From positions 1 to 21,412 of IMG/VR virus record IMGVR_UViG_3300025732_001973: DNA of 21,412 nt; one strand, written 5' to 3'. The notes beneath the pieces are model-generated. The model made no database searches. It was not told the origin of the DNA and saw only the letters and a list, made by a program, of their open reading frames with translations. This document shows positions 2 to 15,568 of the stretch, piece after piece (position 1 is the first letter of the stretch; every line of letters begins with the position of its first letter). The DNA comes from a virus. The position numbers and the translations under genes were made by a program.

Positions 2-64
2 GGTGCTACATGTATAAAAATTGATACAAACACCTGGATTTTAATTGGTGATTTGACGGCTTAG
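2..64 (+). CDS. C-terminal end of a phage fibre/collar protein (partial)
   Basis: This is an open frame running in from the left edge to a TAG at 62-64. The last residues read NTWILIGDLTA. The complete fibre protein at 7322-8755 ends in NTWIVTGDLTA, so the two share the same C-terminal module and this fragment is the end of a paralogous or module-sharing fibre. The stop codon overlaps the Shine-Dalgarno sequence (AGGGGA, 63-68) of the next gene. In both places the fibre is followed directly by a gene for a Hint-domain protein. Only about 20 residues are visible, so the rest of the protein is unknown. Confidence 0.75.
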   Translation, partial: GATCIKIDTNTWILIGDLTA

Positions 65-72
65 GGGATCTA

Positions 73-1512
73 ATGCTCGGATTTTTAGGTAAATGGGCTG
101 GATCAAAGGGTATGGCAAAGATGCCAGACCTTTCAGGACTTACAAGACAAGAAGCAAAAGATGCTATTGAGGCTGCAGGCTTTAAGTTTAGAAATGAAAC
201 TGAAAAAACAGATAATGATGGAGCCAATTCATCTAATAATGGTAAGATCAAGAGTCAATCAAAATCAAAAGATGAACTTTTAGACTACGAAACTGAAATT
301 GATTTTGAATATTATACATATATTCAAAACACACAAAATACACAAAATGTTCAGAATACTCAAGCAACACAGAATACTCAAAACGTGCAAAATGTACAGA
401 ATACCCAGGCCACTCAAAATACACAAAACGTTCAAAATACAGCATCAACATACTGGAGCGCATGGGAAGACTTTGGGCCATATGAAATTGAAACTGGTTG
501 TGACGGAACCTACACAACATTTGAAATTGGTATAACTCAGTTATCTTTTGAATACTACACTGGAACCACAACATGGACCTATGGAGTAAAAAGCCAAAAG
601 AAACCAGGAAGCGTTTCAACAAACTCTGCACAAGTAGATGGCAAGTGTGGCTATGTTTCTCAAAATACCCAGAATACACAGAATACACAAAATACCCAGA
701 ACACACAAAATACACAAAACACTGTTTGTTTAGAAGACTATATTCCGTCTGGAACAGTTTATCGTTCAGAGTGTTGTGGAAATGCGGTAAAACTAAGATA
801 TGTTGATTGTAATGGTCAATTAACTAATACATATACTTATGAATGTATTAGCCAGTGTTATGCACAAGATACACAAAATACACAGAACACTCAAAATACC
901 CAAAATACACAGAACACTCAGAATACCCAGAATACTCAGAACACCCAAAATACACAAAATACACAAAATACTCAAGCAACACAAAACACTCAGGCTACTC
1001 AGAATACACAAAATTCTGGTGGTGGAGGTTATGGAGGATGCTTTGTTTACGGAACGAAGGTTTTATTGGCAGACGGTACATGGAAGAATGTAGAAAATTT
1101 ACAAATTGGAGACGAACTAAGATCACTATCAATTCCAGATCTTCCATTAGAAGAAAATCCTACATACTTTAACACCTGGTCTACAGATAATATTAATGAC
1201 ATTTCATATTCAACAACATTTGTTACAAATACAAAGCATGATGGGTATACATCTTATTATAAGATCAATGATTCTATCGAGGTAACGTTTGAGCACTATG
1301 TTTTTGCTAAAAAGAACGGTACTTGGGCATTTAGACAGGTACAGTCATTAGCAATCGGTGATAGCATTTTGAATGAAGATTGTGATGTAGTGGATATTAC
1401 ATCCATTGAAATTATTGATGGTGTTGTACAGACAGTAAATATTGACACAGAAATCAGTGACGTTTACTTTGTTCAAGGGATGCTTGCCCACAACTTTATG
1501 ATAGCCAAGTAA
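73..1512 (+). CDS. Modular surface protein: PASTA-like domain, NTQ repeats, Cys modules, C-terminal Hint domain
   Basis: A 479-aa protein with SD AGGGGA about 4 nt before the ATG. A short Gly/Lys N-terminus is followed by a PASTA-like domain (about 17-83: MPDLSGLTRQEAKDAIEAAG, then a SQS segment and a beta-strand end). Three NTQ/NVQ/ATQ tripeptide-repeat linkers (86-123, 197-217, 266-314) separate a roughly 73-aa module with Cys143 and Cys192 from a roughly 50-aa module rich in Cys (219, 234, 235, 246, 258, 262). A GSG-type linker leads to a Hint domain (323-474): Cys323 at its first position, block B TFEH (Thr405, His408) and a C-terminal block ending LAHN (His473, Asn474). Only FMIAK follows, so there is no Cys/Ser/Thr at the +1 position and ordinary protein splicing is not expected; self-cleavage or ligation as in Hedgehog or bacterial intein-like domains is more likely (inference). 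It is probably a virion surface or host-binding protein. Target and processing are unknown. Confidence 0.85.
   Translation: MLGFLGKWAGSKGMAKMPDLSGLTRQEAKDAIEAAGFKFRNETEKTDNDGANSSNNGKIKSQSKSKDELLDYETEIDFEYYTYIQNTQNTQNVQNTQATQNTQNVQNVQNTQATQNTQNVQNTASTYWSAWEDFGPYEIETGCDGTYTTFEIGITQLSFEYYTGTTTWTYGVKSQKKPGSVSTNSAQVDGKCGYVSQNTQNTQNTQNTQNTQNTQNTVCLEDYIPSGTVYRSECCGNAVKLRYVDCNGQLTNTYTYECISQCYAQDTQNTQNTQNTQNTQNTQNTQNTQNTQNTQNTQNTQATQNTQATQNTQNSGGGGYGGCFVYGTKVLLADGTWKNVENLQIGDELRSLSIPDLPLEENPTYFNTWSTDNINDISYSTTFVTNTKHDGYTSYYKINDSIEVTFEHYVFAKKNGTWAFRQVQSLAIGDSILNEDCDVVDITSIEIIDGVVQTVNIDTEISDVYFVQGMLAHNFMIAK
328..441 (+). repeat. NTQ tripeptide-coding repeat, block 1
   Basis: Nine-base repeats encode N-T-Q, N-V-Q and A-T-Q triplets (residues 86-123 of the protein starting at 73). 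Third codon positions vary freely (aca/acc/act, caa/cag, aat/aac) while the amino acids are kept, which points to selection on the protein rather than very recent DNA slippage. Confidence 0.9.
661..723 (+). repeat. NTQ tripeptide-coding repeat, block 2
   Basis: About seven near-perfect Q-N-T units (residues 197-217), linking the two Cys-containing modules of the same protein. As in block 1, codons for Thr, Asn and Gln alternate between synonymous forms. Confidence 0.9.
868..1014 (+). repeat. NTQ tripeptide-coding repeat, block 3
   Basis: The longest block (residues 266-314, about 16 triplets), mostly N-T-Q with two A-T-Q units near its end. It connects the Cys-rich module to the glycine linker in front of the Hint domain. 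Confidence 0.9.
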
Positions 1513-1524
1513 CGGAGATATAAA

Positions 1525-2115
1525 ATGAAAAAAGAAATATTAGATGATAGGATAGTTGCCTATACAGATTTTATCGATAATCCCATGTCATTAGTTGATG
1601 ATATTAATGAGTTACGTGCTAAATATAATCTACCATTTGTACCAAGTACAATTAATAATTATGAAATTGATCATGAAAAAATATCATCTTCTGCATTTTG
1701 GCTTCATGAGCACCCCACAGATTATTCTGTTGGACCAGATTTTACAAAAGATAAACAAGCCCTAAATGCAAAGATTGATCGAGTAATATTTGAGCCATCA
1801 ATTGACTACGTAAAAACTTATTCACCAGGAATATCTAGCCGTGAGCGTTGGGGTTTAATTCGTTATGATGGAGAACAATTTATTACCTGGCATACTGATG
1901 GAAACGATTCAAACAAACGTAAGGTTTCTTTTGTTTTTTATTTAAACGATGATTATGAAGGTGGAGAGATTGAATTTAAGGACTTTGCAGGGCAAAAGCC
2001 ATACAAACCTAAAGCAGGTACCCTGTTAATGTTTCCATCGTATCCAGAGTACCTGCATAGGGTAGTTCCAGTAGTTAGTGGAACTAAGTATGTATTTATT
2101 TCTTTTGCTGTTTAA
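1525..2115 (+). CDS. 2OG-Fe(II) oxygenase, prolyl-4-hydroxylase-like
   Basis: A 196-aa protein with SD GGAG 7 nt before the ATG, 12 nt after the Hint gene and so probably cotranscribed with it. The C-terminal half has the double-stranded beta-helix signature of the P4H-like family: His123-Thr-Asp125 (HxD), distal His178 (YLHRV) and Lys188 in SGTKY, the position that binds 2-oxoglutarate in prolyl hydroxylases. YLNDDYEGGEIEF and AGTLLMFPS are typical strands of the fold. The expected reaction is hydroxylation of an amino-acid side chain (or another substrate) with 2-oxoglutarate and O2, in the cytoplasm. The substrate is unknown; position suggests a virion protein such as the preceding repeat protein (inference). 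Its stop overlaps that of the converging lysin gene (TTAA, 2112-2115). Confidence 0.85.
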   Translation: MKKEILDDRIVAYTDFIDNPMSLVDDINELRAKYNLPFVPSTINNYEIDHEKISSSAFWLHEHPTDYSVGPDFTKDKQALNAKIDRVIFEPSIDYVKTYSPGISSRERWGLIRYDGEQFITWHTDGNDSNKRKVSFVFYLNDDYEGGEIEFKDFAGQKPYKPKAGTLLMFPSYPEYLHRVVPVVSGTKYVFISFAV

Positions 2116-2669
2116 TTTGGAAATTGTTTCATTAACTGCTTTGTTTTTGCAGTGATTCCGTGCCAAGCCGTCCAGTTTTTTCCACCTTGGGACATATAGA
2201 ATGCAATCTCTGCATTTAAAACTGGATTAAAAAGTTCTGCATTTGCTGTTAGTTCAAACTTGTCTCTTCTATCTGGACCAAGATCACCAATCATATTTAT
2301 TTGGAATAGCCCATAAGAACTGTCACCAGTTCTAGTGCTATTGTTAAAGGCATGTGGTCGTCCACCAGATTCTTTCTTAGCAACTGCCCAAGCCTCAACT
2401 AGATTTTGTCCACGGAAGCCCACACCCCATAGCAATTCCTTGAGTTGTAGGTCAGTAAGAGAAAATGCATTTTTATATTTTTCTAAAATGTTTTCTGCCT
2501 TAGAAACACTTAAAGCCTCTTGCGAGGCTACAGGCGCAACTGAAGGCTGATTCGTACTTAAATTATTAGTCACATCCGCTGCGTTTGCGGTATTTGACCA
2601 TACAGCAAACATAACTAGAATGCTGAGTATCCCAATGATTTGCTTCTTTTCGTTCATAAAGTTCATCAT
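2112..2669 (-). CDS. Secreted lysozyme/lytic transglycosylase-like lysin
   Basis: The only reverse-strand gene, 185 aa. The start was chosen at 2669 because AAGGAGG (2675-2681) lies 5 nt upstream; an in-frame ATG at 2696 has no such site. Residues 1-30 form a signal peptide: Lys-containing N-end, hydrophobic core IIGILSILVMFAVW, and a probable cleavage after ANA. A Ser/Thr/Pro-rich stretch (about 35-55) and a helical segment precede the transglycosylase-like domain (about 88-172), with candidate catalytic Glu100 in AKKESGG followed by DSSYGLFQIN and, later, SQGGKNWTAWHG, a pattern typical of transglycosylases in actinophages. It should cleave peptidoglycan glycan strands outside the membrane, which suggests a Gram-positive-type host. 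Export by the signal peptide means it may not need a holin. It has its own promoter. Confidence 0.85.
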   Translation of the reverse strand: MMNFMNEKKQIIGILSILVMFAVWSNTANAADVTNNLSTNQPSVAPVASQEALSVSKAENILEKYKNAFSLTDLQLKELLWGVGFRGQNLVEAWAVAKKESGGRPHAFNNSTRTGDSSYGLFQINMIGDLGPDRRDKFELTANAELFNPVLNAEIAFYMSQGGKNWTAWHGITAKTKQLMKQFPN

Positions 2670-2690
2670 AGTTTCCTCCTTAGAAACATA

Positions 2691-2712
2691 AAACACCTTT
2701 TTAGGGGTGTTT
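2691..2712 (-). other. Leader hairpin of the lysin mRNA
   Basis: AAACACC (2691-2697) pairs with GGTGTTT (2706-2712), extendable by two G-U pairs to a four-base loop. Given the promoter at 2724-2753 (minus strand), the hairpin starts a few nucleotides after the predicted transcription start and upstream of the SD, so it may protect the 5' end. No U-tract follows in either direction, so it is not a good terminator. Confidence 0.55.
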
Positions 2713-2723
2713 ACTTACTGTTT

Positions 2724-2753
2724 AGTATAACATCATTTGGATTCCATTGTCAA
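2724..2753 (-). promoter_or_regulatory. Near-consensus sigma70-type promoter for the lysin
   Basis: On the minus strand, TTGACA (2753-2748), an 18-nt spacer and TATACT (2729-2724), preceded by TGT to form an extended -10. The predicted start is near 2717, giving a leader of about 48 nt that contains a hairpin and a strong SD. This is the best promoter in the window. Confidence 0.8.
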
Positions 2754-2769
2754 CTACTAAAATGAAATA

Positions 2770-2778
2770 TGGTATAAT
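2770..2778 (+). promoter_or_regulatory. Extended -10 promoter of the 2788 gene
   Basis: TGG followed by TATAAT (2773-2778). The ATG at 2788 comes 9 nt after the -10 box, so transcription should start within about three bases of the start codon and no SD is present. The -35 region (TTGTCA, 2747-2752, or TCAACT) overlaps the -35 of the divergent lysin promoter. Confidence 0.7.
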
Positions 2779-2787
2779 GAAAACACT

Positions 2788-3318
2788 ATGCCTGAAGTGT
2801 CATCTAACTTTCAAATGCCCTATCCAGTAGCAAATGATCCAGTTAACGTGCATGGAGACATTAAAAATCTTGTAGATAGATTAAATGTTATCCTTCCACC
2901 ACTTGGCATATCAGCATTTCAATTAGAGGTAGTTAATGTGACAGAAGTCACAATTCCAGCAGGGTATCCAGTATATATAACAGGATATTCAAATACATCA
3001 AACAAATCAACAGTAGAACCATCTCTTCCAAGTACAACAAAGCCAGTTCTTGGAATTACAAAATCAAGCATTACCCCAAATAATAGTGGAACAGTTGTTG
3101 TGGCAGGAGTTCTTGAAGGTGTTAATACATCTGCATTTCAAAATGGAGATGTTTTGTATGTAAAGGCTGGAGGAGGTTTGACTAATGTTAGGCCTGAAGG
3201 TGGATCTGGAGCAGTAGGAGTTGTTGCACATGCAGAGACTGCAGTCAACAATGGCATTATAATTGTAGAAGCAAAAGGGAACGGTACTTGGGGAGCATTA
3301 AAAGATGGTCTCGCATAA
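2788..3318 (+). CDS. Phage fibre/decoration-type beta protein
   Basis: A 176-aa protein with no SD; its start is fixed by the -10 box just upstream. An N-terminal segment (PVANDPVNVHGDIKNLVDRL) is followed by a beta-rich domain (about 45-170) of the kind seen in phage fibre and neck proteins: VTIPAGYPVYITGY, then KPVLGITKSSI, then GTVVVAGVLEGVNTSAFQ, a GDVLYV strand and GAVGVV. This pattern of a value, its origin and a later shift is common in tail-fibre attachment domains. It begins the fibre gene cluster and is probably structural, near the baseplate or collar. No enzymatic motif is visible. The family assignment rests on remembered similarity only. Confidence 0.6.
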   Translation: MPEVSSNFQMPYPVANDPVNVHGDIKNLVDRLNVILPPLGISAFQLEVVNVTEVTIPAGYPVYITGYSNTSNKSTVEPSLPSTTKPVLGITKSSITPNNSGTVVVAGVLEGVNTSAFQNGDVLYVKAGGGLTNVRPEGGSGAVGVVAHAETAVNNGIIIVEAKGNGTWGALKDGLA

Positions 3319-3325
3319 TCGTTAA

Positions 3326-3334
3326 TGGTATAAT
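3326..3334 (+). promoter_or_regulatory. Extended -10 promoter, leaderless start at 3341
   Basis: TGG followed by TATAAT (3329-3334), then exactly 6 nt and ATG at 3341. A start 7 nt after the -10 box would fall on the A of the ATG, so the mRNA is predicted to be leaderless. No SD is present. Confidence 0.7.
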
Positions 3335-3340
3335 TAAACT

Positions 3341-3745
3341 ATGGTCACACTAAGAACAACTACAGTAACATCAACACAAGCAACTAACGCTGCTGGTGAA
3401 ATTCCTGTTGGTGCAATTCCACCAAAGGTAAGATGGACTGTTGTTAAGGGAGATAGTGCATCATTTAGAATTTATGTTGAGGATGATACTGCAAATGCAA
3501 TTGATCCAACAGATTATAATATCAAAGCAGACTTCCGAAGAGGAACTCAGTTGTTATTTTCAACAACACCAGAAAAAACAGAATTTGATGGCAGTGGTGA
3601 ATTTACAGTTTACCTAACTCCAGCACAATGTAAGCAACTAGCAACAAATGATCTTTTTGACGTTCAATTATCTGATGCAGTAGTTGTTTGGACTGTGTGT
3701 AGAGGAGTTATGACAGTTATTGATGAAGTAACTGATCGTGAATAA
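3341..3745 (+). CDS. Small baseplate/fibre-associated protein, family not recognised
   Basis: A 134-aa protein starting directly behind a -10 box. The N-terminal 30 residues are Thr/Ala-rich and probably flexible. The remainder alternates short beta strands (WTVVKGDSASFRIYVED, YNIKADFRRGTQLLF, GEFTVYLTPAQ, VVWTVCRGVMTVI), a layout that resembles the N-terminal domains of baseplate upper or fibre-anchoring proteins that take a polynomial-like input segment. That comparison is weak. Its stop shares one base with the next start (TAATG at 3743-3747), so the two genes are translationally coupled. Function unknown; a structural role is inferred from the fibre genes on both sides. Confidence 0.6.
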   Translation: MVTLRTTTVTSTQATNAAGEIPVGAIPPKVRWTVVKGDSASFRIYVEDDTANAIDPTDYNIKADFRRGTQLLFSTTPEKTEFDGSGEFTVYLTPAQCKQLATNDLFDVQLSDAVVVWTVCRGVMTVIDEVTDRE

Positions 3746-4002
3746 TGGCAAAACAATCATTTAAAAATATAAGTGGCGCAACTTTAATTGGATTAGCAAC
3801 ATTAAATCCAATTGGTGAAATTACAAATCTTGATGGAAGATATGTAGAAGTAGAATTAGCACAAGCACCAAAAAAGGTATTAGTTAATGAACACTTACCT
3901 TTTAAACTTAGAATTTCCAATGTAGTCCTTGACGGATATACAAGGAAAAATCCAGCAGGAATCGGAGTGGCAATTATTGGACACAGCAATTATATTCTGT
4001 GA
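3745..4002 (+). CDS. Small uncharacterised phage protein
   Basis: An 85-aa protein starting in a TAATG overlap with the preceding gene and without its own promoter, so it depends on readthrough or reinitiation. It looks like a single beta-rich domain: an ISGATLIGLATLNP strand-turn-strand, GRYVEVELAQAPKKV, then LPFKLRISNVVLDGY. There is no signal peptide, membrane segment, Cys pair or known catalytic motif. The location between fibre-type genes suggests a small structural or assembly protein. I do not recognise the family. Confidence 0.6.
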   Translation: MAKQSFKNISGATLIGLATLNPIGEITNLDGRYVEVELAQAPKKVLVNEHLPFKLRISNVVLDGYTRKNPAGIGVAIIGHSNYIL

Positions 4003-4009
4003 AAAATAA

Positions 4010-4018
4010 TGCTATAAT
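4010..4018 (+). promoter_or_regulatory. Extended -10 promoter, leaderless start at 4025
   Basis: TGC followed by TATAAT (4013-4018), 6 nt (tcaatc) and ATG at 4025. The geometry is identical to the site at 3326-3334, and again there is no SD. Confidence 0.7.
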
Positions 4019-4024
4019 TCAATC

Positions 4025-4471
4025 ATGGCAAAGTTATCCCTATCTACAGTCAAGAATAAGTTTCAAACTGGTGATCGTCCAACACAGGAAGATTACGAAG
4101 ACTTAATTGACTCAGCATCTGCTCAAGCAACAGACCTTGGTACAGCAGGTAATAATGAAAATACAGTACAAGGAATAGAGAACGCTACAGTAATCGATAA
4201 CTTTAGCGCAACAGAGTGGCGTATGGTCAAGTACCTTGTTTCTCTATCCATGACAGCATCAGGCAACAATAAGTTCTATGCTACAGAAATCACAATTTTA
4301 GTTGACGGATCTAATATTAACGTCAGCGAATACGGCACAATAGACAATGATGGGAATATTGGCACCATTAGCGTCTCACGGACTGGAAATACCGTGGCTT
4401 TAACAGTCACTCCAGATCCTGCAATTACGCCAGTCACAGCACGTTATGCACGTATTGGACTTAAGGCATAA
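4025..4471 (+). CDS. Fibre-type protein with a T4-like attachment helix and beta C-domain
   Basis: A 148-aa protein. The N-terminus (FQTGDRPTQEDYEDLIDS, about 12-29) is the short motif that precedes many phage fibre proteins. The C-terminal domain (about 62-148) resembles the C-terminal domain of the 766-aa fibre encoded just downstream: both contain a conserved core with an E-I/V-strand-D-G pattern, an EY motif and a later G-I/L-G-x-I segment. The two proteins thus share a distal module, here on a minimal shaft. It is probably a short fibre or tip protein that assembles with its neighbours. The start is set by the -10 box at 4013-4018. Receptor unknown. Confidence 0.65.
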   Translation: MAKLSLSTVKNKFQTGDRPTQEDYEDLIDSASAQATDLGTAGNNENTVQGIENATVIDNFSATEWRMVKYLVSLSMTASGNNKFYATEITILVDGSNINVSEYGTIDNDGNIGTISVSRTGNTVALTVTPDPAITPVTARYARIGLKA

Positions 4472-4485
4472 AAAAGGAGATAAAG

Positions 4486-6786
4486 ATGGCAACAGTAAAT
4501 AAAAACTTCAAAATCAAGCAAGGTCTTATCGTTGAAGGTACAGAAGCAACAGTAAACGGTAATGATATTCTTACAAAGGCACAAGCAGATCAAGACTACA
4601 TTGTCAATCTTGCTGGTGGCGGAGCAACAACTGCTAACGAACCAAATAAGGTTGTTAAGCGTGATGCAAATGGTAATTTTGCAGCAGGAACAATTAATGC
4701 AGACCTTGTAGGTGATGTAACTGGTGACTTAACTGGTAATGCAGATACCGCAACTGCTCTTGAGACTGCTCGTACAATCGAATTGACTGGAGATGTAACT
4801 GGTTCTGCATCATTCGATGGTACTTCAAATATTCAAATTCAAGCATCACTAGATGCAGACTTTGCAACAGATGCAGAAATTGCAACAGCAAAGTCAGAAG
4901 CAATTACCGAAGCAGGAACATATACAGATACACAAATTTCTACAGAAGTTACAAACCGTAACTCTGCAATTGCTACAGCAAAGTCAGAGGCTATTTCAAC
5001 AGCATCTACAGATGCTACAAATAAGTCTAACGCTGCAGAAGCAGGTGCAAATTCATACACAGATGATGAAATTACCGCACTAGACCTTTCTTTAAAGGCA
5101 TATGCAGACCAAGCAGAATCTGACGCAATCAGCGCAGCAGCAACTGATGCAACATCAAAGGCCAATGCAGCACAGGCTGCAGCAGAAGCAACTGCCTCAG
5201 CAGATGCAACTACTAAGGCTAACGCTGCTCAAGCAGCAGCAGAAGCAACTGCAGCATTAGACGCTACCACAAAGGCCAATGCAGCACAGGCTGCAGCAGA
5301 AGCAACTGCCTCAGCAGATGCAACTAGCAAGGCAAATGCAGCACAGGCTGCAGCAGAAGCAACTGCACAGGGGTATGCAGATACAGCAGAAGCAGATGCT
5401 AAATCTTACGCAGACTCATTGATTAGCGACTCAACAACCACAACAACCAACACATGGTCAGCATACAAGATTGATGCTGAAATTGATGCAGCAGTTGCAA
5501 ATGTTGTTGGAGCAGCACCAGAACTTCTTAATACACTTGAAGAACTTGCTACAGCACTTGAGAACAACCCAGATATTATTTCTGACCTTGAAACAGTTGC
5601 AGCAGGTAAGCAAGATACACTGACACCTGGCTCAAACATTGACATTACAGGATCAACAATTTCTGTAACTGGTCTTGACTCAGCAGATATCTCAGACTTT
5701 AACACAGCAGCACTTTCTGCAACATCAGCAGCATACGATGCAGCAGGATCTGCAGATACAGCAGAAGACAATGCAATCGCTGCAGCAGCACTAGATGCAA
5801 CATCAAAGGCTGACGCAGCAGAGGCAGATGCAATCGCTGCAGCAGCACTAGATGCTACTGATAAGGCAAACACTGCATATACAAACGCAGTTGCAGCAGC
5901 AGCATCAGATGCTACTAATAAAGCAGATGCAGCAGAAGCAGCAGCAAACTCATACACAAATGCAGAAATTACACAAGAAGTTGCAGATAGAAACTCTGCG
6001 ATTTCATCAGCAATTTCTGACGAGGTAACTAATAGAAATTCTGCAATCTCTGCAGCAATTCAGCAAGAAGTTACAGACAGAGACTCTGCTATTACATTGG
6101 CAATTGGCAACCTAGATACATCAGTTGCTGATGATATTAATAATGCAATTAGCCAAGAAGTTTTCAATAGAAATGAAGCAATTGCAACAGCAGTTGACGC
6201 ACTAGATACAGATGATATCGAAGAGGGTACAAATCACCTATACTTCACAGATGCTCGTGCACAGTCTGCAGTTGCTGGTAATATTGCCACAGCAGTATCA
6301 GATGCAGTAAATGCAATCACTACAACAGATATTGAAGAAGGAACTAACCTATACTTCACAAATCAGAGAGCAATTGATGCAGTAGGTGGAAACATCAACG
6401 ACGCAATTGCTGCTGGTGATTCAAATGCTTCACCAACATATCAAGAAATTAACTTTACATGGGCAACCAAGCAAATCGGTACATATACATGGGTTCCTAA
6501 CTCAGGAGTAACTACTGTATATGAGTGGAGCGGATCACAATATCCAGCAGCAAAGTTCCTTGTAAGAGTTCGTGAGGGACAACATTCACAGGTTTCTGAG
6601 GTTCTTGTAACCAAGGATGATAATGGAAATGTTGCTATCACAGAATATGCAATCGTTCATACAAATGGAATTCTTGGAGATATCTCTGCAGGATTTGCAA
6701 ACGGTACATATTCATTGACAGTAAATGCAGTAAATAATTCAACAGAGGTTATCGTATCAGGCATGTTGCTTGCATACGGTGACTAA
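4486..6786 (+). CDS. Long tail fibre, Ala-rich repeat shaft
   Basis: A 766-aa protein with SD GGAG (4476-4479) 6 nt before the ATG. The N-terminus MATVNKNFKIKQGLIVEGT is shared with the next gene and is probably the attachment module. The region from about 80 to 520 is a very Ala-rich helical shaft built from 19-residue units (core DATxKANAAQAAAEATA) and from SYTD-type and VTNRNSAI-type units, probably a trimeric coiled coil. An APELLNTLEELATALENNPD linker is typical of phage fibres. Two DIEEGTNxLYFT repeats (about 576 and 615) are a well-known fibre motif, and the last ~125 residues form a beta tip domain related to that of the 148-aa protein before it. Its role is most likely host recognition, with the tip binding the receptor (inference). 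Confidence 0.8.
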   Translation: MATVNKNFKIKQGLIVEGTEATVNGNDILTKAQADQDYIVNLAGGGATTANEPNKVVKRDANGNFAAGTINADLVGDVTGDLTGNADTATALETARTIELTGDVTGSASFDGTSNIQIQASLDADFATDAEIATAKSEAITEAGTYTDTQISTEVTNRNSAIATAKSEAISTASTDATNKSNAAEAGANSYTDDEITALDLSLKAYADQAESDAISAAATDATSKANAAQAAAEATASADATTKANAAQAAAEATAALDATTKANAAQAAAEATASADATSKANAAQAAAEATAQGYADTAEADAKSYADSLISDSTTTTTNTWSAYKIDAEIDAAVANVVGAAPELLNTLEELATALENNPDIISDLETVAAGKQDTLTPGSNIDITGSTISVTGLDSADISDFNTAALSATSAAYDAAGSADTAEDNAIAAAALDATSKADAAEADAIAAAALDATDKANTAYTNAVAAAASDATNKADAAEAAANSYTNAEITQEVADRNSAISSAISDEVTNRNSAISAAIQQEVTDRDSAITLAIGNLDTSVADDINNAISQEVFNRNEAIATAVDALDTDDIEEGTNHLYFTDARAQSAVAGNIATAVSDAVNAITTTDIEEGTNLYFTNQRAIDAVGGNINDAIAAGDSNASPTYQEINFTWATKQIGTYTWVPNSGVTTVYEWSGSQYPAAKFLVRVREGQHSQVSEVLVTKDDNGNVAITEYAIVHTNGILGDISAGFANGTYSLTVNAVNNSTEVIVSGMLLAYGD
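5158..5390 (+). repeat. 19-codon tandem repeats in the fibre shaft
   Basis: Four copies of a 57-bp unit encode K-A-N-A-A-Q-A-A-A-E-A-T plus a variable end. Copies one and three are identical over 55 bases (5158-5212 and 5272-5326, 114 bases apart), while the copy between them has many silent changes (aacgctgctcaagcagca). A related 57-bp pair lies at about 5767-5880. Confidence 0.85.
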
Positions 6787-6806
6787 TCAAAGGTAAGGGG
6801 TAGATA

Positions 6807-7262
6807 ATGGCTACAGTAGATAAGGACTTTAGAGTAAAGAACGGACTACAGGTTAATGGAACTGGTAGTTTCGGAGGTGCTGTAGTAGTTGGCACACCAA
6901 GTATTGCATCACATGCTGCTACAAAGGAGTATGTAGATACAAATGCTGGTGGAGTTAGAGCAGGATCTACCCCACCAGAAAATCCAACTGATGGAAAGAT
7001 GTGGTTGGATACACTTACAAAAAGAGTTAATGTTTATTATGACGGTGTTTGGTATACACAAGCAACTGTTGATGATACATTAAATCTTCCACAACACATC
7101 CACGATACAGCAATCGATGGAACAGGATTTATTGTTACTACCTTCCGTGAGGGTGGAAGTTTCAATAGCCCACTGGGTCAGGGTTTTGACGGTGGCGGAC
7201 CAAGCACAACTTCTTGGGATGTAACTGCAGATGGTGGCTCACCAATTGATAACTTCAACTAA
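6807..7262 (+). CDS. Short fibre protein sharing the N-terminal attachment module
   Basis: A 151-aa protein with SD AAGGGG 6 nt before the ATG. MATVDKDFRVKNGLQVNGTG matches the start of the 766-aa fibre. A SIASHAATKEYVDT segment is a common phage fibre motif, and GSTPPENPTDGKMWLDTLTKRVNVYYDGVWY resembles the short beta segment found in many tail proteins that precedes the tip. The C-terminus is Gly-rich (GQGFDGGGPSTTSW) with no long shaft. It is probably a short fibre or adaptor that competes or co-assembles with the longer fibre through the shared N-terminus (inference). No catalytic motif is seen. Confidence 0.7.
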   Translation: MATVDKDFRVKNGLQVNGTGSFGGAVVVGTPSIASHAATKEYVDTNAGGVRAGSTPPENPTDGKMWLDTLTKRVNVYYDGVWYTQATVDDTLNLPQHIHDTAIDGTGFIVTTFREGGSFNSPLGQGFDGGGPSTTSWDVTADGGSPIDNFN

Positions 7263-7269
7263 AAACTGA

Positions 7270-7278
7270 TGTTATAAT
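7270..7278 (+). promoter_or_regulatory. Extended -10 promoter of the Mtd-like fibre and Hint cassette
   Basis: TGT followed by TATAAT (7273-7278). The predicted start is near 7285, giving a leader of about 37 nt that contains a small hairpin (7293-7307) and the SD AAGGAG (7308-7313). Unlike the leaderless sites, this promoter drives an SD-dependent gene. Confidence 0.65.
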
Positions 7279-7292
7279 AAGAAAAGTAAAAC

Positions 7293-7307
7293 ATGGGCAG
7301 CACCCAT
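7293..7307 (+). other. Leader hairpin next to the SD of the fibre gene
   Basis: ATGGG (7293-7297) pairs with CCCAT (7303-7307) around the loop CAGCA, immediately before the SD AAGGAG. It could tune translation or protect the mRNA. Short, so of modest weight. Confidence 0.4.
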
Positions 7308-7321
7308 AAGGAGATATAAAT

Positions 7322-8755
7322 ATGGCAACAAGAATGCAACAGCGAAGAGGTACAGCACAGCAATGGACTGATGCGGACCCAATTTTAGCAGCAGGAGAAA
7401 TCGGATTTGAAACCGACACTGGTCAATTTAAAATTGGTGACGGTACCAATCACTGGGCAGACATCTCCTACTTCAAGAACCTAGAAGACCTTGGTGGTTC
7501 TCTAGATGACTACATTTTGCTATCTGAAAAGGGACAAGCAAATGGTGTAGCAACACTTAACGCACAAGGACGCATCCCTCTAGGACAACTTGCTGACCTA
7601 GTTAGCGGAGCACCAGAAGTATTGGATACATTAGGTGAAATTGCAGATGCTGTTCAAGCAGCACAAAATGCACTTACAACAACTGAAGGTGCACTATCAA
7701 CACACAATGCACTAACAGAAAATGTACACGGTATTCCAAATACAGCAGAATTAGTAACAAATGACACCTTAACATCAGCAATCACAGGTGCAATTGCAGA
7801 TGCAGCAACTGCTGCTAATAGCACAATGGCAACACACACTGCTGACACAACAAATGTCCACGGCATTGCTGATACATCAGTATTAGTTACAACAGAAGCA
7901 ATGAACACATTGGTAGATGCTGCATTAGCAACAGCAGCAGCAGATGCTTCAACAAAGGCTACAAATGCACAAACAGCAGCAGGTGTAGCATCAGCAGCAG
8001 CGATCTCAGATCACAATGCTGATAAGACAAATGTTCACGGAATTACAAACACAGAAGATCTTGTTTATACAAATGATGCAAGACTATCTGATGCAAGAAC
8101 ACCTTTAGACGGTTCTGTTACAGATGCAAAGATTGATCAGGCAGCATTGCTTTCACAATCATCTATTGCAAATCTCACAACAGACCTATCTGCTAAGGCA
8201 CCTTTGGTATCACCAGAACTTAGTGGAACACCAACTGCACCTACAGCAGCAGCAGGAACAAATACTACTCAAATTGCAACTACAGCGTTTGTTGGAACTG
8301 CAGTAGCAGCACTCGTAGCATCTGCACCTGAAACATTAAATACATTAAATGAAATTGCAGCAGCAATTAATAATGATGCAGATTTTGCAACAACTATTGT
8401 CGCAGATCTTGCAACAAAGATTACACAGGAAGATCTTGATGCAGCAACTCTTGTAACATTTAATGAGCAAACATCAAGTTATACACTAGCACTTGCAGAT
8501 AACACAAACTTGGTTGAAATGAACTCATCATCTTCAAACACAGTAACAATTCCTGCAGACTCTGCAGTTGCATTCCCTGTAGGGGCTGCAATTGATATCT
8601 TCCAGCGTGGAACTGGACAAACAACTTTGGTAGCAGGTTCTGGGGTAACACTACTTTACACACCAGGATTGAAGTTACGTGCACGTTATTCAGCAGCAAC
8701 CGCAATTAAGCGTTCTGCAAATACATGGATCGTAACAGGCGACCTAACTGCTTAA
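7322..8755 (+). CDS. Phage fibre with Mtd-like N-terminal domain
   Basis: A 477-aa protein with SD AAGGAG 8 nt before the ATG. The N-terminus (MATRMQQRRGTAQQWTDADP then ILAAGEIGFETDTGQFKIGD) matches the N-terminal domain of the major tropism determinant family. The shaft holds APEVLDTLGEIADAV and APETLNTLNEIAAAI linkers and three repeats built around N/T-VHGI-x-N/D-T (about 138, 179 and 238). YTNDARLSDARTP is another fibre motif. The C-terminal ~95 residues (from SSYTLALADNTN to NTWIVTGDLTA) form a beta domain whose end matches the truncated gene at the left edge. It is followed 28 nt later by a Hint protein, as at the left edge. It probably binds the host. There is no C-type-lectin variable region or reverse transcriptase nearby, so diversification is not indicated. 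Confidence 0.8.
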   Translation: MATRMQQRRGTAQQWTDADPILAAGEIGFETDTGQFKIGDGTNHWADISYFKNLEDLGGSLDDYILLSEKGQANGVATLNAQGRIPLGQLADLVSGAPEVLDTLGEIADAVQAAQNALTTTEGALSTHNALTENVHGIPNTAELVTNDTLTSAITGAIADAATAANSTMATHTADTTNVHGIADTSVLVTTEAMNTLVDAALATAAADASTKATNAQTAAGVASAAAISDHNADKTNVHGITNTEDLVYTNDARLSDARTPLDGSVTDAKIDQAALLSQSSIANLTTDLSAKAPLVSPELSGTPTAPTAAAGTNTTQIATTAFVGTAVAALVASAPETLNTLNEIAAAINNDADFATTIVADLATKITQEDLDAATLVTFNEQTSSYTLALADNTNLVEMNSSSSNTVTIPADSAVAFPVGAAIDIFQRGTGQTTLVAGSGVTLLYTPGLKLRARYSAATAIKRSANTWIVTGDLTA

Positions 8756-8783
8756 TAAAATTTAGACAATAAGGGGAAGATAA

Positions 8784-10148
8784 ATGGGAATTTTAAGACG
8801 TGGCGGTAAGGCTGGTAAGGTTGGTAAGGCTGCCAAGCAAGCAACAAGATATTGGGGTATTGCTCCATCACAACCTACAATTACACAGGTTACAAGAGTA
8901 GGAGTTTCATATCTCAGTGGAGATTATGATGTTTACTTTGTTCCAGGAACTGGTGTTGGTGCAACTGCTTCTAGTTTTACTATTACAGCAAACAACCCAT
9001 CATACGGCGATAGAACATTCACAGCAACATCTTCCCCTTATCGTGTAACAGGACTAAGATCTGGAGCAACATGGACCTTTAAGATTAAGGCTAATGCAAC
9101 AATTGGTCAAACTGATACTTCTGTTGTATCTCCAGAGGCAGAAGGAGGTTCACAAGATGTTGTTGGACTTCCAGGAAAGCCATCTGCTCCATCTGCATCA
9201 TCACCATCAAACGTATCATATGATACAATTTCTTGGGGTGCACCAGAAAACGGTGGTTCTGCAATTCTAGATTACCAATGGGAATCAAATGATGGGAAGT
9301 CTGGAACAGTATCTGGAACATCTACAAATGTTAGCCAGGAAGCAGGAACAGCACAAGCATACCGTGTACGTGCTAGAAATGCTGAAGGATATGGTGAATG
9401 GTCCGACTATTCATCAAGCACTACAACATTTTCATTCGTTCCGTTTTCAGTATTCGGCTTCTCACCATTCGGTGTATTCGGATTCTCACCATTCGGCTTC
9501 TCGCCATTTGGTGTATTCGGTTTCTCACCATTTGGTGTATTCGGGTTCTCACCATTTGGATTCTCTCCATTCGGAGTGTTTGGATTCTCTCCATTTGGAT
9601 TCTCACCATTTGGTGTATTTGGTTTCTCACCATTTGCATTCAGCGGATGTATCCATGAAGACACACTAATCCCAACAGTAGGACCAGATAATACATGGGT
9701 TAAGAAGGCAGCAAAGGATGTTGAGCCAGGCGATGAAGTTTGGTCAGTAACATTTAGCGAACTTGTCGATGAAGATGTACTTAATCCAGAAGATTGGTCA
9801 GCAACAACACTAGGTAATATGACTATTACAAAGACAAACGTTGTTTCAAAGGTTCTTTCTCAGAAGACATCAGTTATGACAATTAATAATGATCCTTCAA
9901 AGAAGTACTCGCTTGTACAGCCAGTACTCACAAAGAGAAATGGAACATATTTCTTTATGCACACAGGAGCAATTGAAGTTGGTGACGCTGTGATTGAATA
10001 TTTATACACAAATGACACATTTACTGAAACTCCAGTAACATCTGTAGAAGTTATTGAAGCAGACTCAACAACATATCGTTTTGACTGCGAAGGAACAGAT
10101 ACATACATCGCAGGTGATCTTGTGATGCACAACCTACGTAAGTACTAA
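8784..10148 (+). CDS. Modular surface protein: FnIII-like domains, FG repeats, C-terminal Hint domain
   Basis: A 454-aa protein with SD AAGGGG 7 nt before the ATG. After a Gly/Lys-rich N-terminus come two fibronectin-III-like domains (about 30-117 and 131-213; the second has PSAPS, ISWGAPENGG, YQWES, YRVRARNAEGYGEWS). Residues 221-284 are a belt of FSPFG and VFG units: nine FSPF and fourteen FG dipeptides. The Hint domain follows at 289-450: Cys289 first, CIHEDTLIP, and a C-terminal block ending VMHN (His449-Asn450) with only LRKY after it. The block B motif TxxH of the first Hint protein is replaced here by SLVQ (376-379), a missing key residue that may weaken or alter N-terminal cleavage. 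It probably sits on the virion surface. The downstream enzymes may act on it (inference). Confidence 0.85.
   Translation: MGILRRGGKAGKVGKAAKQATRYWGIAPSQPTITQVTRVGVSYLSGDYDVYFVPGTGVGATASSFTITANNPSYGDRTFTATSSPYRVTGLRSGATWTFKIKANATIGQTDTSVVSPEAEGGSQDVVGLPGKPSAPSASSPSNVSYDTISWGAPENGGSAILDYQWESNDGKSGTVSGTSTNVSQEAGTAQAYRVRARNAEGYGEWSDYSSSTTTFSFVPFSVFGFSPFGVFGFSPFGFSPFGVFGFSPFGVFGFSPFGFSPFGVFGFSPFGFSPFGVFGFSPFAFSGCIHEDTLIPTVGPDNTWVKKAAKDVEPGDEVWSVTFSELVDEDVLNPEDWSATTLGNMTITKTNVVSKVLSQKTSVMTINNDPSKKYSLVQPVLTKRNGTYFFMHTGAIEVGDAVIEYLYTNDTFTETPVTSVEVIEADSTTYRFDCEGTDTYIAGDLVMHNLRKY
9444..9635 (+). repeat. FSPFG / VFG repeat-coding region
   Basis: Repeats of 15 and 24 bases encode FSPFG and FSPFGVFG. Codons vary silently (ttc/ttt, tca/tct/tcg, gga/ggc/ggt) while the protein pattern is almost invariant. 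The dense FG dipeptides recall FG-nucleoporin repeats, although no relationship is implied. Confidence 0.9.
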
Positions 10149-10160
10149 GAATACTGTGTG

Positions 10161-10874
10161 ATGATTTTTTATCACCACCATATTCCAAGAACTTCAGGTA
10201 TGTTTATACGATACCCTCTTACTTCATTATTGACTAGTAAGGGGGTAAAGTATTTATCCGTATATCAGTTAGAACAAATAAATAAAGAAGAATTTTACAA
10301 TGTTAATTATATCTTTGGTCATATTGGTGGATATCCAATAAGATTATTAGATAATGTATTTGAATTTGGAATAGTAAGAAATCCAATAGATAGATTTTTA
10401 AGCACATTTAACTTTTTTTCTAAAGAGGTTTTATCAGTACATCCAACAAATGAATTTTTAGATGAATGGTTATATTCAGATACTTATTCCCTGCCACATT
10501 CAAATTTGCAATCTAAGAGTATTACTGGTACAATTGATGAAGATAAATGGAATAAGTCTAACAGGATCCAGCGTGTACTTGATGGATGGATGTTTGAAGA
10601 TTATAGTCTAGATATCAATAAAATCAAGGAACGAATAGACAGTGCACATTTTTGTTCTTTAGAAAATAATAACCTGTTGCTAGATAAACTATCTAGTATA
10701 CATGAAAAAGAGTATAATTTTACACTATATAAAAGACGGAATAAAATTAATGAGTCAGAACCATTACAGTTTATTCCAACAAAATCACAGATAGATCGTA
10801 TAGAGGAACTCAACCAAACAGATCTTGAACTATATGAGTATGTAAAGACTACAGAAAATAAGGTTTTTAAATAG
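10161..10874 (+). CDS. Sulfotransferase-family protein
   Basis: A 237-aa protein. The ATG at 10161 was preferred; a GTG at 10158 is in frame, and neither has a clear SD, so translation may be coupled to the Hint gene ending 12 nt upstream. HIPRTSGMF (residues 7-15) fits the 5'-phosphosulfate loop (family form H-x-PK/R-T-x-G), and FGIVRNPIDRFLSTFNFF (69-86, Arg73, Ser81) fits the 3'-phosphate-binding motif of carbohydrate and protein sulfotransferases that use PAPS. The protein is low in GC and Asn/Ile/Lys-rich. It would transfer sulfate to a hydroxyl group on a glycan, lipid or tyrosine; the acceptor is unknown. Its place directly behind a virion-type gene suggests modification of the virion or of the host surface (inference). 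Confidence 0.75.
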   Translation: MIFYHHHIPRTSGMFIRYPLTSLLTSKGVKYLSVYQLEQINKEEFYNVNYIFGHIGGYPIRLLDNVFEFGIVRNPIDRFLSTFNFFSKEVLSVHPTNEFLDEWLYSDTYSLPHSNLQSKSITGTIDEDKWNKSNRIQRVLDGWMFEDYSLDINKIKERIDSAHFCSLENNNLLLDKLSSIHEKEYNFTLYKRRNKINESEPLQFIPTKSQIDRIEELNQTDLELYEYVKTTENKVFK

Positions 10875-10904: not shown

Positions 10905-11570
10905 ATGATGGAAGATTTTCCAACACAAGGTTTGCAAAGCGTTAGCAAGTCTGCACAACCACACAGATTTTTTGAGAGATATCTCGATAATGATTTAAAT
11001 AGTTTAGCAGTTGCATTACAAGATAGATATGCAAAGATCGAGCAGGCAAAGGTAACTGGTGTTACACCTGTTACAGATAATGAAGTTTGGAAGTCATCAA
11101 ATAGCGTATCAACTATGAAGTGGAGACAATACAATGTGTTCCAGTTCCATATTGAAGAAATTTATAATCTATATCTAGCCGTATCTGACATGGTAAGAGA
11201 AGCCTGTGATTATTATGAAATTGATTTTGATGAGCAAAAATATATGCTACAGGGTTGGTTTAATATTAATTATGCCAAAAAGGGTAAGTTAGAGTGGCAT
11301 GATCATGGTCCTTTTGGAGCACCAAACTTTCACGGGTATTACTGTGTAAGTGCAGAACCATCTGTAACACACTACAAGGCATTTGACAATTATGTTGAAA
11401 ACTATAATACAAACAATAGAGCCATCCTATCCGAGATGGGACACCCACACGCTATGGCTGATTGGGAATGGGATGGTCCAAGAATTACAGTTGCTTATGA
11501 CGTAATTCCACTCAAGGATGTTATGCGTTTCGGATCTGATCAGGAACAGCATTGGATTCCTTTGGCATGA
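10905..11570 (+). CDS. 2OG-Fe(II) oxygenase-like protein, tandem copy 1
   Basis: A 221-aa protein (start 10905 or the adjacent ATG at 10908). The fold pattern matches phage 2OG-Fe(II) oxygenases with the W-F-N-x-N/D-Y lead: GWFNINY (117-123), a metal-type WHDHG (His132, His134), FHGYY (142-146), then RAILSEMGHPH (His180/182) and PRITVAYDV with Arg193 where the 2-oxoglutarate-binding residue is expected. The first motif reads H-D-H, so ligand assignment is tentative. It is clearly paralogous to the next protein (shared HRFFER-LDN, FHGYY, NNRAILSE and GHPH blocks). It should use 2-oxoglutarate and O2 to oxidise an unknown substrate. Its stop overlaps the next start (ATGA). Confidence 0.7.
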   Translation: MMEDFPTQGLQSVSKSAQPHRFFERYLDNDLNSLAVALQDRYAKIEQAKVTGVTPVTDNEVWKSSNSVSTMKWRQYNVFQFHIEEIYNLYLAVSDMVREACDYYEIDFDEQKYMLQGWFNINYAKKGKLEWHDHGPFGAPNFHGYYCVSAEPSVTHYKAFDNYVENYNTNNRAILSEMGHPHAMADWEWDGPRITVAYDVIPLKDVMRFGSDQEQHWIPLA

Positions 11571-12205
11571 TTGCAATGAATAAACCAGAGCATAGATTTT
11601 TTGAAAGAATTCTTGATAATAATCTAGAAGATTTATCTAAGTTTTTATTTGAAAAACAAGATGAAATCCTAAGTGGGAAAATAGGAAATATACCTGCAGA
11701 CCTACTTGCTAACTTTAATGCTACCAATGGAGCAGCAACACAACTTGGAACCTACTACAATGTCTTTACATTTGAAAATGAAGGTATCCAGAAACTCAAG
11801 TCAGCACTTAAAGATATGACTATTGAGGCATGTAATTATTACGGTATTGATTTTTCATCAAATGATTTTAAAATACATGGTTGGTTTAATGTTGACTATA
11901 AGTTTGATAGCGTATCCATTTCCCCTAAACAGGATAATAGGTTCTATCATGACCATATGAATGGCGAGGGTGCTCCAGTATTTCATGGATACTATTCTAT
12001 AAATGCTGAACCATCTATTACCTATTATAAGATCAATAACCTAAATGATTTTGAAAATGTAAATGTAAATAATAGAGCAATTTTATCAGAAACAGGTCAT
12101 CCTCATGGTAGAGATGACTGGTATCAGGATACACCTAGAATTACACTTGCATATGACATTGCTCCATCAAGTTATAACGTTGGAGAAAAATGGATACAAC
12201 TATGA
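11567..12205 (+). CDS. 2OG-Fe(II) oxygenase-like protein, tandem copy 2
   Basis: A 212-aa protein. The start at 11567 was chosen because ATGA overlaps the previous stop; in-frame ATGs at 11552 and 11576 also exist. It shares with copy 1 EHRFFERILDN, GWFNVDY (105-111), YHDH (His128, His130), FHGYYSINAEPSITYY, NNRAILSETGHPH (His178/180) and PRITLAYD (Arg191). Compared with copy 1 it has an extra loop before the metal site (about 113-127). A tandem duplication followed by divergence is the simplest explanation. Role and substrate are unknown; two tandem paralogues suggest two related substrates or a heteromer (inference). Its stop again overlaps a start (ATGA at 12202). Confidence 0.7.
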   Translation: MIAMNKPEHRFFERILDNNLEDLSKFLFEKQDEILSGKIGNIPADLLANFNATNGAATQLGTYYNVFTFENEGIQKLKSALKDMTIEACNYYGIDFSSNDFKIHGWFNVDYKFDSVSISPKQDNRFYHDHMNGEGAPVFHGYYSINAEPSITYYKINNLNDFENVNVNNRAILSETGHPHGRDDWYQDTPRITLAYDIAPSSYNVGEKWIQL

Positions 12206-14460: not shown

Positions 14461-15066
14461 ATGAAGATTATTGGAAACTTTATCAGTTCTGAAGATCTCA
14501 AGACTGTACAAGAGTATATTGCTACAATCAAATTCAATACAAAAGAAGACCATGTGCCTTTACACGATGCCTTATTTGCAAACGAGGGAACTAAGTTTGA
14601 TATCCACACACGTGGAGAAATGCCAGATCATATTTTAGAAATTTTTTCTAAGTACTCAAAAGGCTATTACGAAGCAGTGCAATCAGAATCCGACCTAGAC
14701 TATCATCCACCAATGTTTTCAAAGCATTACATTGCAAGATATAGAACTGGTGCAGAATCTGAGCCACACTTTAATATGGAAAAGCCTGCACACACATATG
14801 GCTCATACATAGTTTGGCAAAATGCAAAGTCTGGTGGACATATCCTATTTCCTAATCGTGGAGTAGACTTAATTGCAACACCAGGAGACTTAATCATTTT
14901 TGAAGAATCAGAAAATGATAAGCACGGCATTAGTAAAATTACAGAAGGTGAAATGTTTATATCTGAAGCCTGGATGGGAACAAAGGGACAACTTTGGATG
15001 CCGAATAGAACACCTTATGAGCAAGTAGAATGGGATGATTGGGAGATCAAGGGATTCTATGAATGA
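14461..15066 (+). CDS. 2OG-oxygenase-like protein with altered active site
   Basis: A 201-aa protein, 2 nt behind the RNR stop with a weak SD (AGGA). Strand pattern and spacing match the P4H-like fold: SKHYIARYRTGAESEPHF (87-104), SGGHILFPN, ATPGDLIIFEES, KHGISKITEGEMFISEAWM. The metal motif reads His103-Phe-Asn105 where HxD is expected, distal His155 is present, and the 2-oxoglutarate-binding position carries Glu164 in TEGEM instead of Arg/Lys. Two changed positions suggest it is a degenerate or repurposed member, perhaps non-catalytic. The fold assignment is moderately sure; activity is doubtful. It overlaps the next gene by 8 nt, so the two are coupled, and they may work as an inactive/active pair (inference). 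Confidence 0.65.
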   Translation: MKIIGNFISSEDLKTVQEYIATIKFNTKEDHVPLHDALFANEGTKFDIHTRGEMPDHILEIFSKYSKGYYEAVQSESDLDYHPPMFSKHYIARYRTGAESEPHFNMEKPAHTYGSYIVWQNAKSGGHILFPNRGVDLIATPGDLIIFEESENDKHGISKITEGEMFISEAWMGTKGQLWMPNRTPYEQVEWDDWEIKGFYE

Positions 15067-15568
15067 TCTTGTGAAGTTTGTAAAAAGTTTTGTTCCGTAT
15101 GACGATGCACGAAAGATATCTGAATATGCTCGTTTAAATAGTGATAAGTTTACAAATTTTGGTAATACAGAACAAGAGTTTACATTTCATGCAGAGTTTA
15201 ATAATAATGAAATTAAAGACCTACTACAAAAATATCAAAGACTTGTTTATGAGTTTGTAACTAGCAACTATCCTGGACCATTTCATGAATATGACGAATC
15301 AAAAATGCATATTGCAAAGTTTGAAACTGGTCACGGTATGCATGAGCATTTTGACTCAACAAAGCCAAATGATATAACCACTCTTATTTATCTTAACGAA
15401 GACTATAGTGGTGGAGATATCTATTTCCCAGAGTTAAATATTTCTATAAAGCCACAAGAGGGTGATTTACTCTGTTTTCCAGATACCCCAGATTTTGTGC
15501 ATGGTGTAAAGCCAATTACTAGTGGAACAAGATATACTGCCCCAAGATGGTTCACACGCATTGTGTGA
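15059..15568 (+). CDS. 2OG-Fe(II) oxygenase, prolyl-4-hydroxylase-like
   Basis: A 169-aa protein. The start at 15059 was chosen because AAGGG (15049-15053) lies 5 nt upstream and the N-terminus then resembles the preceding protein; an ATG at 15035 is in frame but lies deeper in the previous gene. Active-site residues are intact: His97-Phe-Asp99 in HEHFD, distal His148 in FVHGV, Arg158 in SGTRY, with YLNEDYSGGDIYFPE and EGDLLCFPD strands. It should hydroxylate a protein or small-molecule substrate with 2-oxoglutarate and O2. Its TGA stop (15566-15568) is also the TGN element of the next promoter. Substrate unknown. Confidence 0.82.
   Translation: MNDLVKFVKSFVPYDDARKISEYARLNSDKFTNFGNTEQEFTFHAEFNNNEIKDLLQKYQRLVYEFVTSNYPGPFHEYDESKMHIAKFETGHGMHEHFDSTKPNDITTLIYLNEDYSGGDIYFPELNISIKPQEGDLLCFPDTPDFVHGVKPITSGTRYTAPRWFTRIV

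Follow-up and report, generated by a model that had tools for sequence, protein, structure and literature searches.

Two copies of a fibre and companion gene cassette

A stretch of DNA from a water phage in which a tail fibre gene is twice followed by a gene for a protein ending in an intein-like Hint domain raises the question of what such a domain does beside a phage tail fibre. The DNA studied (hereafter the window) is 21,412 nt long and corresponds to positions 1–21,412 of the IMG/VR record IMGVR_UViG_3300025732_001973. We propose that each cassette encodes a fibre and a companion protein that probably forms the fibre tip, that the Hint domain serves as a cap that can be removed, and that the repetitive arm preceding it is perhaps chemically modified. 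We consider this proposal about evenly balanced between being right and being wrong.

All parts of the two cassettes are encoded on the plus strand. Fibre 1 is truncated by the window edge; bases 2–64 encode GATCIKIDTNTWILIGDLTA and a stop codon, which are the last 20 codons of the gene, ending in NTWILIGDLTA. Its complete counterpart in the close relatives L002/L228 (2858–3493) is 211 aa long and has an identical 20-residue end. Companion protein 1 (73–1512, 479 aa) has the hydrophobic and basic N-terminus MLGFLGKWAGSKGM, a PASTA domain (118–309, residues 16–79; Pfam PF03793, E 1.4e-8), a TQN/NTQ repeat arm (325–1014) composed of three tracts (325–438, 661–719 and 863–1014), a Gly linker, and the Hint 1 domain (1039–1512). 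PHROGs links this protein to phrog_38766, a family of virion structural proteins. In the second cassette, fibre 2 (7322–8755, 477 aa) starts with an Mtd_N domain (PF18454, E 2.4e-14) and ends in NTWIVTGDLTA; the C-terminal module of about 100 aa delimited by alignment (8447–8752) is referred to here as the GDL module. Companion protein 2 (8784–10,148, 454 aa) consists of a basic start, a fibronectin type III (FnIII) region, an FGFSPFGV repeat arm (9449–9641) and the Hint 2 domain (9648–10,148). The best-scoring FnIII stretch lies at 9180–9416 (residues 133–211; PF00041, E 6.4e-6), and a second one is also above the threshold. The original prediction, made from the sequence alone, had described a duplicated cassette with conserved gene order, fibres ending in NTWI-x-x-GDLTA, and differing N-terminal modules (PASTA plus NTQ repeats versus FnIII plus FG repeats). 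All of this was borne out, and Pfam confirmed the PASTA and FnIII assignments.

Pairing of GDL fibres with Hint genes in other phages

The original prediction had named repeated pairing of Hint genes with GDL-ended fibres in related phages as its own test. IMG/VR scans with the GDL module gave 80 loci, and scans from the Hint domains gave 90 loci; adjacency was counted using a simple gene caller, and clusters were formed at 80% identity. The gene following a GDL fibre is a Hint gene in 13 of 61 cases, as against 2 of 824 among other genes, both of them 5'-cut (odds ratio 111, Fisher p 2e-14). A GDL-type fibre, called by profile or end-motif, is located directly upstream in 41 of the 42 assessable IMG/VR Hint clusters, which belong to uncultured phages, although this figure is not fully independent because the loci supplying the Hint queries had initially been identified via the GDL module. 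The exception is the 885-residue type of the L113 contig. The expected pairing was therefore found and, as the gene order recurs on dozens of independent viral contigs, the cassette is more than a chance arrangement.

Two Hint copies are present in 12 of the 50 Hint contigs. The regions of all 12 were read, and a GDL fibre precedes both copies in ten of them; the pairs L228/L239, L231/L234 and L237/L238 are near-duplicates. No GDL fibre was detected before the first Hint copy of L230 and L236, the L236 gene being truncated at the edge of its contig.

A third type of Hint protein, with the N-terminus IFxGSSWxxxKxxKLxxxxxW, can be noted in L113 (2838–5495) and L230 (3753–6497), where no GDL fibre was detected upstream. 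The GDL module itself was rejected as a Hint-specific partner: 259 phage records, mostly of Gordonia phages, hold it, and 13 of 48 distinct neighbours are Hint genes. No relatives of Hint 2 were found in bacterial genomes, and no FnIII or PASTA companion starts were found in cultured phages at the cut-offs used.

Hint fold and active site

Pfam matches at both Hint ends are weak, and that of companion 2 (E 0.003) is under the Pfam cut-off. The AlphaFold models decide the assignment; both are confident, with a pLDDT (predicted local distance difference test) of 88.5 for Hint 1 (model m4466f15843a6) and 91.6 for Hint 2 (model m6e1e47368f65). Foldseek and VIA-align place Hint 1 nearest to 6y75, the bacterial intein-like (BIL) domain BIL2 encoded at the BUBL1 locus of T. 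thermophila (Z 20.3, root-mean-square deviation (rmsd) 1.6, 137 aligned residues), and to 2lwy, a BIL domain of C. thermocellum (Z 18.2). The structural matches of Hint 2 are the same BIL domains and mini-inteins (6y75, E 4.8e-7; 6fre, TM-score 0.70), and the Hint family profile matches 2lwy with E 6e-14. On the strength of these models, both C-terminal ends are Hint domains. Unrelatedness of the two ends on structure prediction, which would have spoken against the original prediction, was not found. Its claim of a conserved Hint end stands as far as homology is concerned; however, the two domains share only about 23% identity, and one of them is without a key active-site residue.

The active site of Hint 1 is complete and includes Cys1 (at 1039), the block-B motif T-x-x-H (TFEH, 1285–1296) and His-Asn (HN, 1489–1494), followed by the five-residue tail FMIAK. 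Hint 2 has Cys1 (at 9648), HN (10,128–10,133) and the tail LRKY, and at 9909–9920 it has SLVQ in place of the block-B motif; the His is lost, as in most of its clade, and Gln stands in its position. In neither protein is HN followed by Cys, Ser or Thr at position +1; the next residue is F in Hint 1 and L in Hint 2. The BIL features comprising the Hint fold, Cys1 and HN without a +1 nucleophile are thus seen in both, while block-B T-x-x-H is present in Hint 1 alone, and only Hint 1 was classified as a BIL-type domain because protein 1 has TFEH where protein 2 has SLVQ. The self-processing that had been predicted for both proteins is, judging by their residues, plausible for protein 1 and doubtful for protein 2.

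Three known identities were considered and rejected. A canonical intein does not fit, as there is no real C-extein, only five and four residues after HN, starting with F and L. A pretoxin PT-HINT does not fit either: no toxin domain is present, the proteins end 4–5 residues after HN, and the PF07591 match is below the cut-off. A Hedgehog Hog domain would include a sterol-recognition region; none was found, and nothing follows the Hint domain in either protein.

The tally of 51 Hint clusters indicates which residues are retained. Cys occupies position 1 in 48 of them and Ser in the other three, the terminal Asn is kept in 45, and the tails are mostly short; block-B His is found in 11 clusters and is replaced in the rest by Glu (30 clusters) or Gln (10 clusters). 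One explanation of this pattern is that the Hint domain acts as an assembly chaperone, capping the protein for folding or trimerisation and usually being retained, with self-cleavage lost or incidental. It is consistent with the persistence of the fold in the 40 clusters where block-B His is Glu or Gln and with the loss of Cys1 or Asn in some (L064, L069). However, such frequent retention of Cys1 and Asn exceeds what a purely structural cap would need, and many close companions have no Hint domain at all. Furthermore, a bulky residue before Cys1 can substitute for block-B His in the N–S acyl shift, and natural inteins without this His likewise have a bulky residue there (Friedel et al., PMC6333167). 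A non-small residue before Cys1 is commoner in His-less than in His-bearing clusters (31/40 versus 3/8, p 0.04); this association is a lead only because the sequences are related, and the rescue would not apply to protein 2, in which Gly precedes Cys1. We regard a retained folding cap as unlikely, though worth keeping in mind.

The dN/dS comparisons (nonsynonymous and synonymous substitution rates) were made against the nearest relative, and values of dS above 1 are approximate. Hint 1 is strongly conserved and under purifying selection (dN 0.117, dS 1.33). The strongest constraint measured is that of the FG arm of companion 2 (dN 0.015, dS 1.09; dN/dS about 0.014). Purifying selection on Hint 1 speaks against an origin from selfish inteins that once entered gene ends and survive there as disappearing remnants. 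Patchy presence and, in some members, degenerate active sites would agree with such an origin, but no homing endonuclease is present, the C-extein is limited to between a few and some 45 residues, and the domain occupies one fixed position in a single gene class across 41 clusters. We consider this explanation very unlikely.

Modular structure of the companion proteins

In the usual two-slot layout, slot 1 contains a short fibre of the AARYSG type together with a PASTA companion and slot 2 contains a longer fibre with an FnIII companion; L235 deviates in its slot 1 fibre type. A PASTA companion accompanies AARYSG-type fibres in 6/6 cases and other fibres in 4/52 (p 5e-6). The arm repeats are more alike between the slots of one genome than across genomes (nine distinct two-slot genomes, p 5e-5), with the exception of the window lineage (NTQ versus FGFSP) and L235. 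Since the N-terminal module tracks the fibre and the arms are shared between slots, the arm with the Hint domain behaves as an exchangeable block. The idea of a constant Hint end with exchangeable surface parts is therefore partly reversed: the PASTA or FnIII module goes with the fibre, the arm and Hint are exchanged, and the Hint domain is optional.

In many GDL companions there is no Hint domain, and the C-terminus consists of aromatic-proline repeats. Among the FnIII companions, six Hint-less ones are 52–74% identical to Hint-bearing ones over about 200 residues, the L061 and L119 companions reaching 74% over 205 residues. These close Hint-less companions are most simply explained if the arm is the functional end of the protein and the Hint domain serves as its cap.

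Proposed maturation of the tip protein

Each cassette would provide a distal tail-fibre assembly, the fibre of which ends in the common GDL module. The tip protein would be built, in order, from a short docking peptide, a PASTA or FnIII module, a repetitive arm and an optional C-terminal Hint/BIL domain, with the N-terminal part fitting the fibre and the arm as the working end. Cys1 would break the bond after the arm by an N–S acyl shift followed by hydrolysis or nucleophile attack. The final Asn could release the tail of 4–5 residues, and the arm would be left as the mature C-terminus. Cleavage is predicted for protein 1 because its active site is complete, and slow, conditional or no cleavage is predicted for protein 2 because it has lost block-B His. 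Shedding of the Hint domain could be likened to the loss of intramolecular chaperones from other tail proteins. In this scheme the gene pairing, the Hint fold, the active-site residues, the selection and the gene neighbourhood are observed, and the tip location, the cleavage and the modification of the arm are inferred.

The same first chemical step and the same residues would also serve covalent coupling, in which the Hint domain converts the arm C-terminus into a thioester for transfer to a nucleophile, as in the attachment of cholesterol to Hedgehog, instead of being plainly shed. The nucleophile might be another tail protein, a glycan or a group on the host surface. No acceptor or acceptor-binding region was found, and HN with a short tail is retained here, whereas Hedgehog does not need them. 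Coupling is nevertheless compatible with the nearest structural match being the BIL2 domain of the BUBL1 locus and with the absence of a +1 nucleophile from BIL domains, which yield mostly cleaved products (PMC7664689). We consider coupling improbable.

Neighbouring enzyme genes and possible modification of the arm

The genes around the cassettes suggest a further step. A 2-oxoglutarate (2OG)-Fe(II) oxygenase resembling prolyl hydroxylases (1525–2115; PF13640, E 3.7e-16) begins 13 nt after companion 1, and a sulfotransferase (10,158–10,874; PF03567, E 7.3e-6) begins 10 nt after companion 2. A second 2OG-Fe(II) oxygenase is located at 15,035–15,568 (PF13640, E 1.1e-12), and a weak relative of the 2OG oxygenases at 14,461–15,066 has no Pfam match and was recognised with a home-made 2OG profile (E 6e-7); all four are on the plus strand. 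The adjacent oxygenases and sulfotransferase would probably modify the arm. The position immediately behind the companion is taken by a 2OG oxygenase gene in 21 of the 51 cases listed, and by a sulfotransferase gene in the window and in five relatives checked by Pfam. PF13640 was found in 46/50 Hint contigs, in 17/18 armed contigs and in 0/12 contigs with an arm-less companion (p 1e-10), the arm-less contigs being fewer and shorter than the others. In the 21 contigs longer than 45 kb, the 8 kb downstream of Hint genes contain 81 of the 109 PF13640 copies, against an expectation of 17 (rotation p 5e-5).

The oxygenases and the sulfotransferase might instead be unrelated to the tip, as host-takeover genes that one phage group carries in its late operon. 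This alternative concerns the modification step only and is compatible with the other explanations. PHROGs classes the 2OG genes as auxiliary metabolic or host-takeover genes, and the remaining 28 of the 109 2OG copies are elsewhere in the contigs; the concentration of copies downstream of Hint genes and their absence from the 12 arm-less-companion contigs speak for a link with the arm. We place the alternative, enzymes unrelated to the tip, slightly below an even chance. The broader view that aquatic phages have a widespread operon containing a fibre, an arm protein with a self-cleaving Hint cap, and hydroxylases and sulfotransferases encoded alongside to modify the arm is put forward tentatively, as doubtful but not implausible.

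Several observations weigh against the removable cap and the modified arm. Block-B His is missing in 40/51 clusters, protein 2 of the window included, and Ser replaces Cys1 in three clusters, among them L064, which is also without the terminal Asn; some Hint domains may have no activity or only a structural role. The evolution of Hint 2 is faster than that of Hint 1 (dN 0.44, dS 1.35 for Hint 2). As for modification, the NTQ arm of companion 1 has no proline, jumbo phages with collagen-like Hint proteins have no 2OG gene in the flanks examined, and the association between arms and 2OG genes may be due to common descent within one phage group and not to function.

Other genes of the region can also be described. 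An SLT_3 lysozyme-like gene (2112–2696, minus strand), kept in L002, lies between both cassettes. Two proteins without a Pfam or PHROG match (10,905–11,570 and 11,552–12,205) are conserved with the cassette, and in some relatives one of this type directly follows the companion. In L062, L064 and L126, a DUF6065-like gene replaces the 2OG oxygenase or sulfotransferase after the companion; the assignment is based on Pfam matches for L062 and L126, on phrog_7084 for L062, and on a similar start for L064.

Comparison with known systems

The BIL domains 2lwy and 6y75 are similar to the window Hint domains in fold (Z 18–20, rmsd 1.6 for Hint 1), in Cys1 and the C-terminal HN, and in having neither Cys, Ser or Thr at +1 nor an endonuclease. 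In contrast to them, the window domains terminate a predicted phage tail-tip protein, and most of their relatives are without block-B His. The nearest cultured relatives of Hint 1 are the collagen-like tail proteins of phrog_38766 (phage NCTB and phages of Erwinia, Yersinia and Alcaligenes). These share a C-terminal Hint domain with full motifs, a short tail, a location in the tail gene region and, in several, a Gly-rich lead-in; however, their arm is collagen-like and the preceding gene is not a GDL fibre, and their examined flanks contain no 2OG gene. The NCTB record already names one protein 'putative phage tail protein, contains intein domain'. Beside a Hint-ended tail protein of NCTB (L005), a nearly stand-alone Hint-like protein of 153 aa with a divergent start is encoded at 16,698–17,159 on the minus strand. 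Uncultured Caudovirales proteins in BFVD have the same Hint end (TM-score 0.81–0.93), and their records carry FnIII or PASTA names, such as A0A6J5MFV5 ('Fibronectin type III') and A0A6J5NY54 ('PASTA_pknB domain containing protein'), which are automatic names only.

In T-even phages such as T2 and S16, the gp37 fibre gene is followed by the gene for gp38, an exchangeable tip adhesin with low-complexity motifs. The fibre-then-tip order is the same as in the cassette, but gp38 has no Hint domain, and a gp38-type PHROG gave no match at E ≤ 1, a search that distant homology could escape. The intramolecular chaperones of tailspikes and of the T5 L-shaped fibre differ from Hint in fold and cleavage chemistry. 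They resemble the proposed cap in that a C-terminal domain is removed from a tail protein, as stated for the T5 fibre protein pb1 (PMC4690869). Searches of the open-access literature on Hint/BIL domains of phage tails, PASTA/FnIII fibres of freshwater phages, and proline hydroxylation in tails turned up no account of the cassette.

Both Hint/BIL domains and phage tail fibres are familiar; a recurrent two-gene cassette with Hint at the end of a likely tip protein and with two slots per genome was not encountered in the papers searched. The cassette may be a self-maturing host-recognition device, and it offers a defined test case for the role of C-terminal intein-like domains in phages. If the operon proposed above is real, the abundant phage 2OG-Fe(II) oxygenases would gain a substrate, for which the aromatic-proline arms are suggested.

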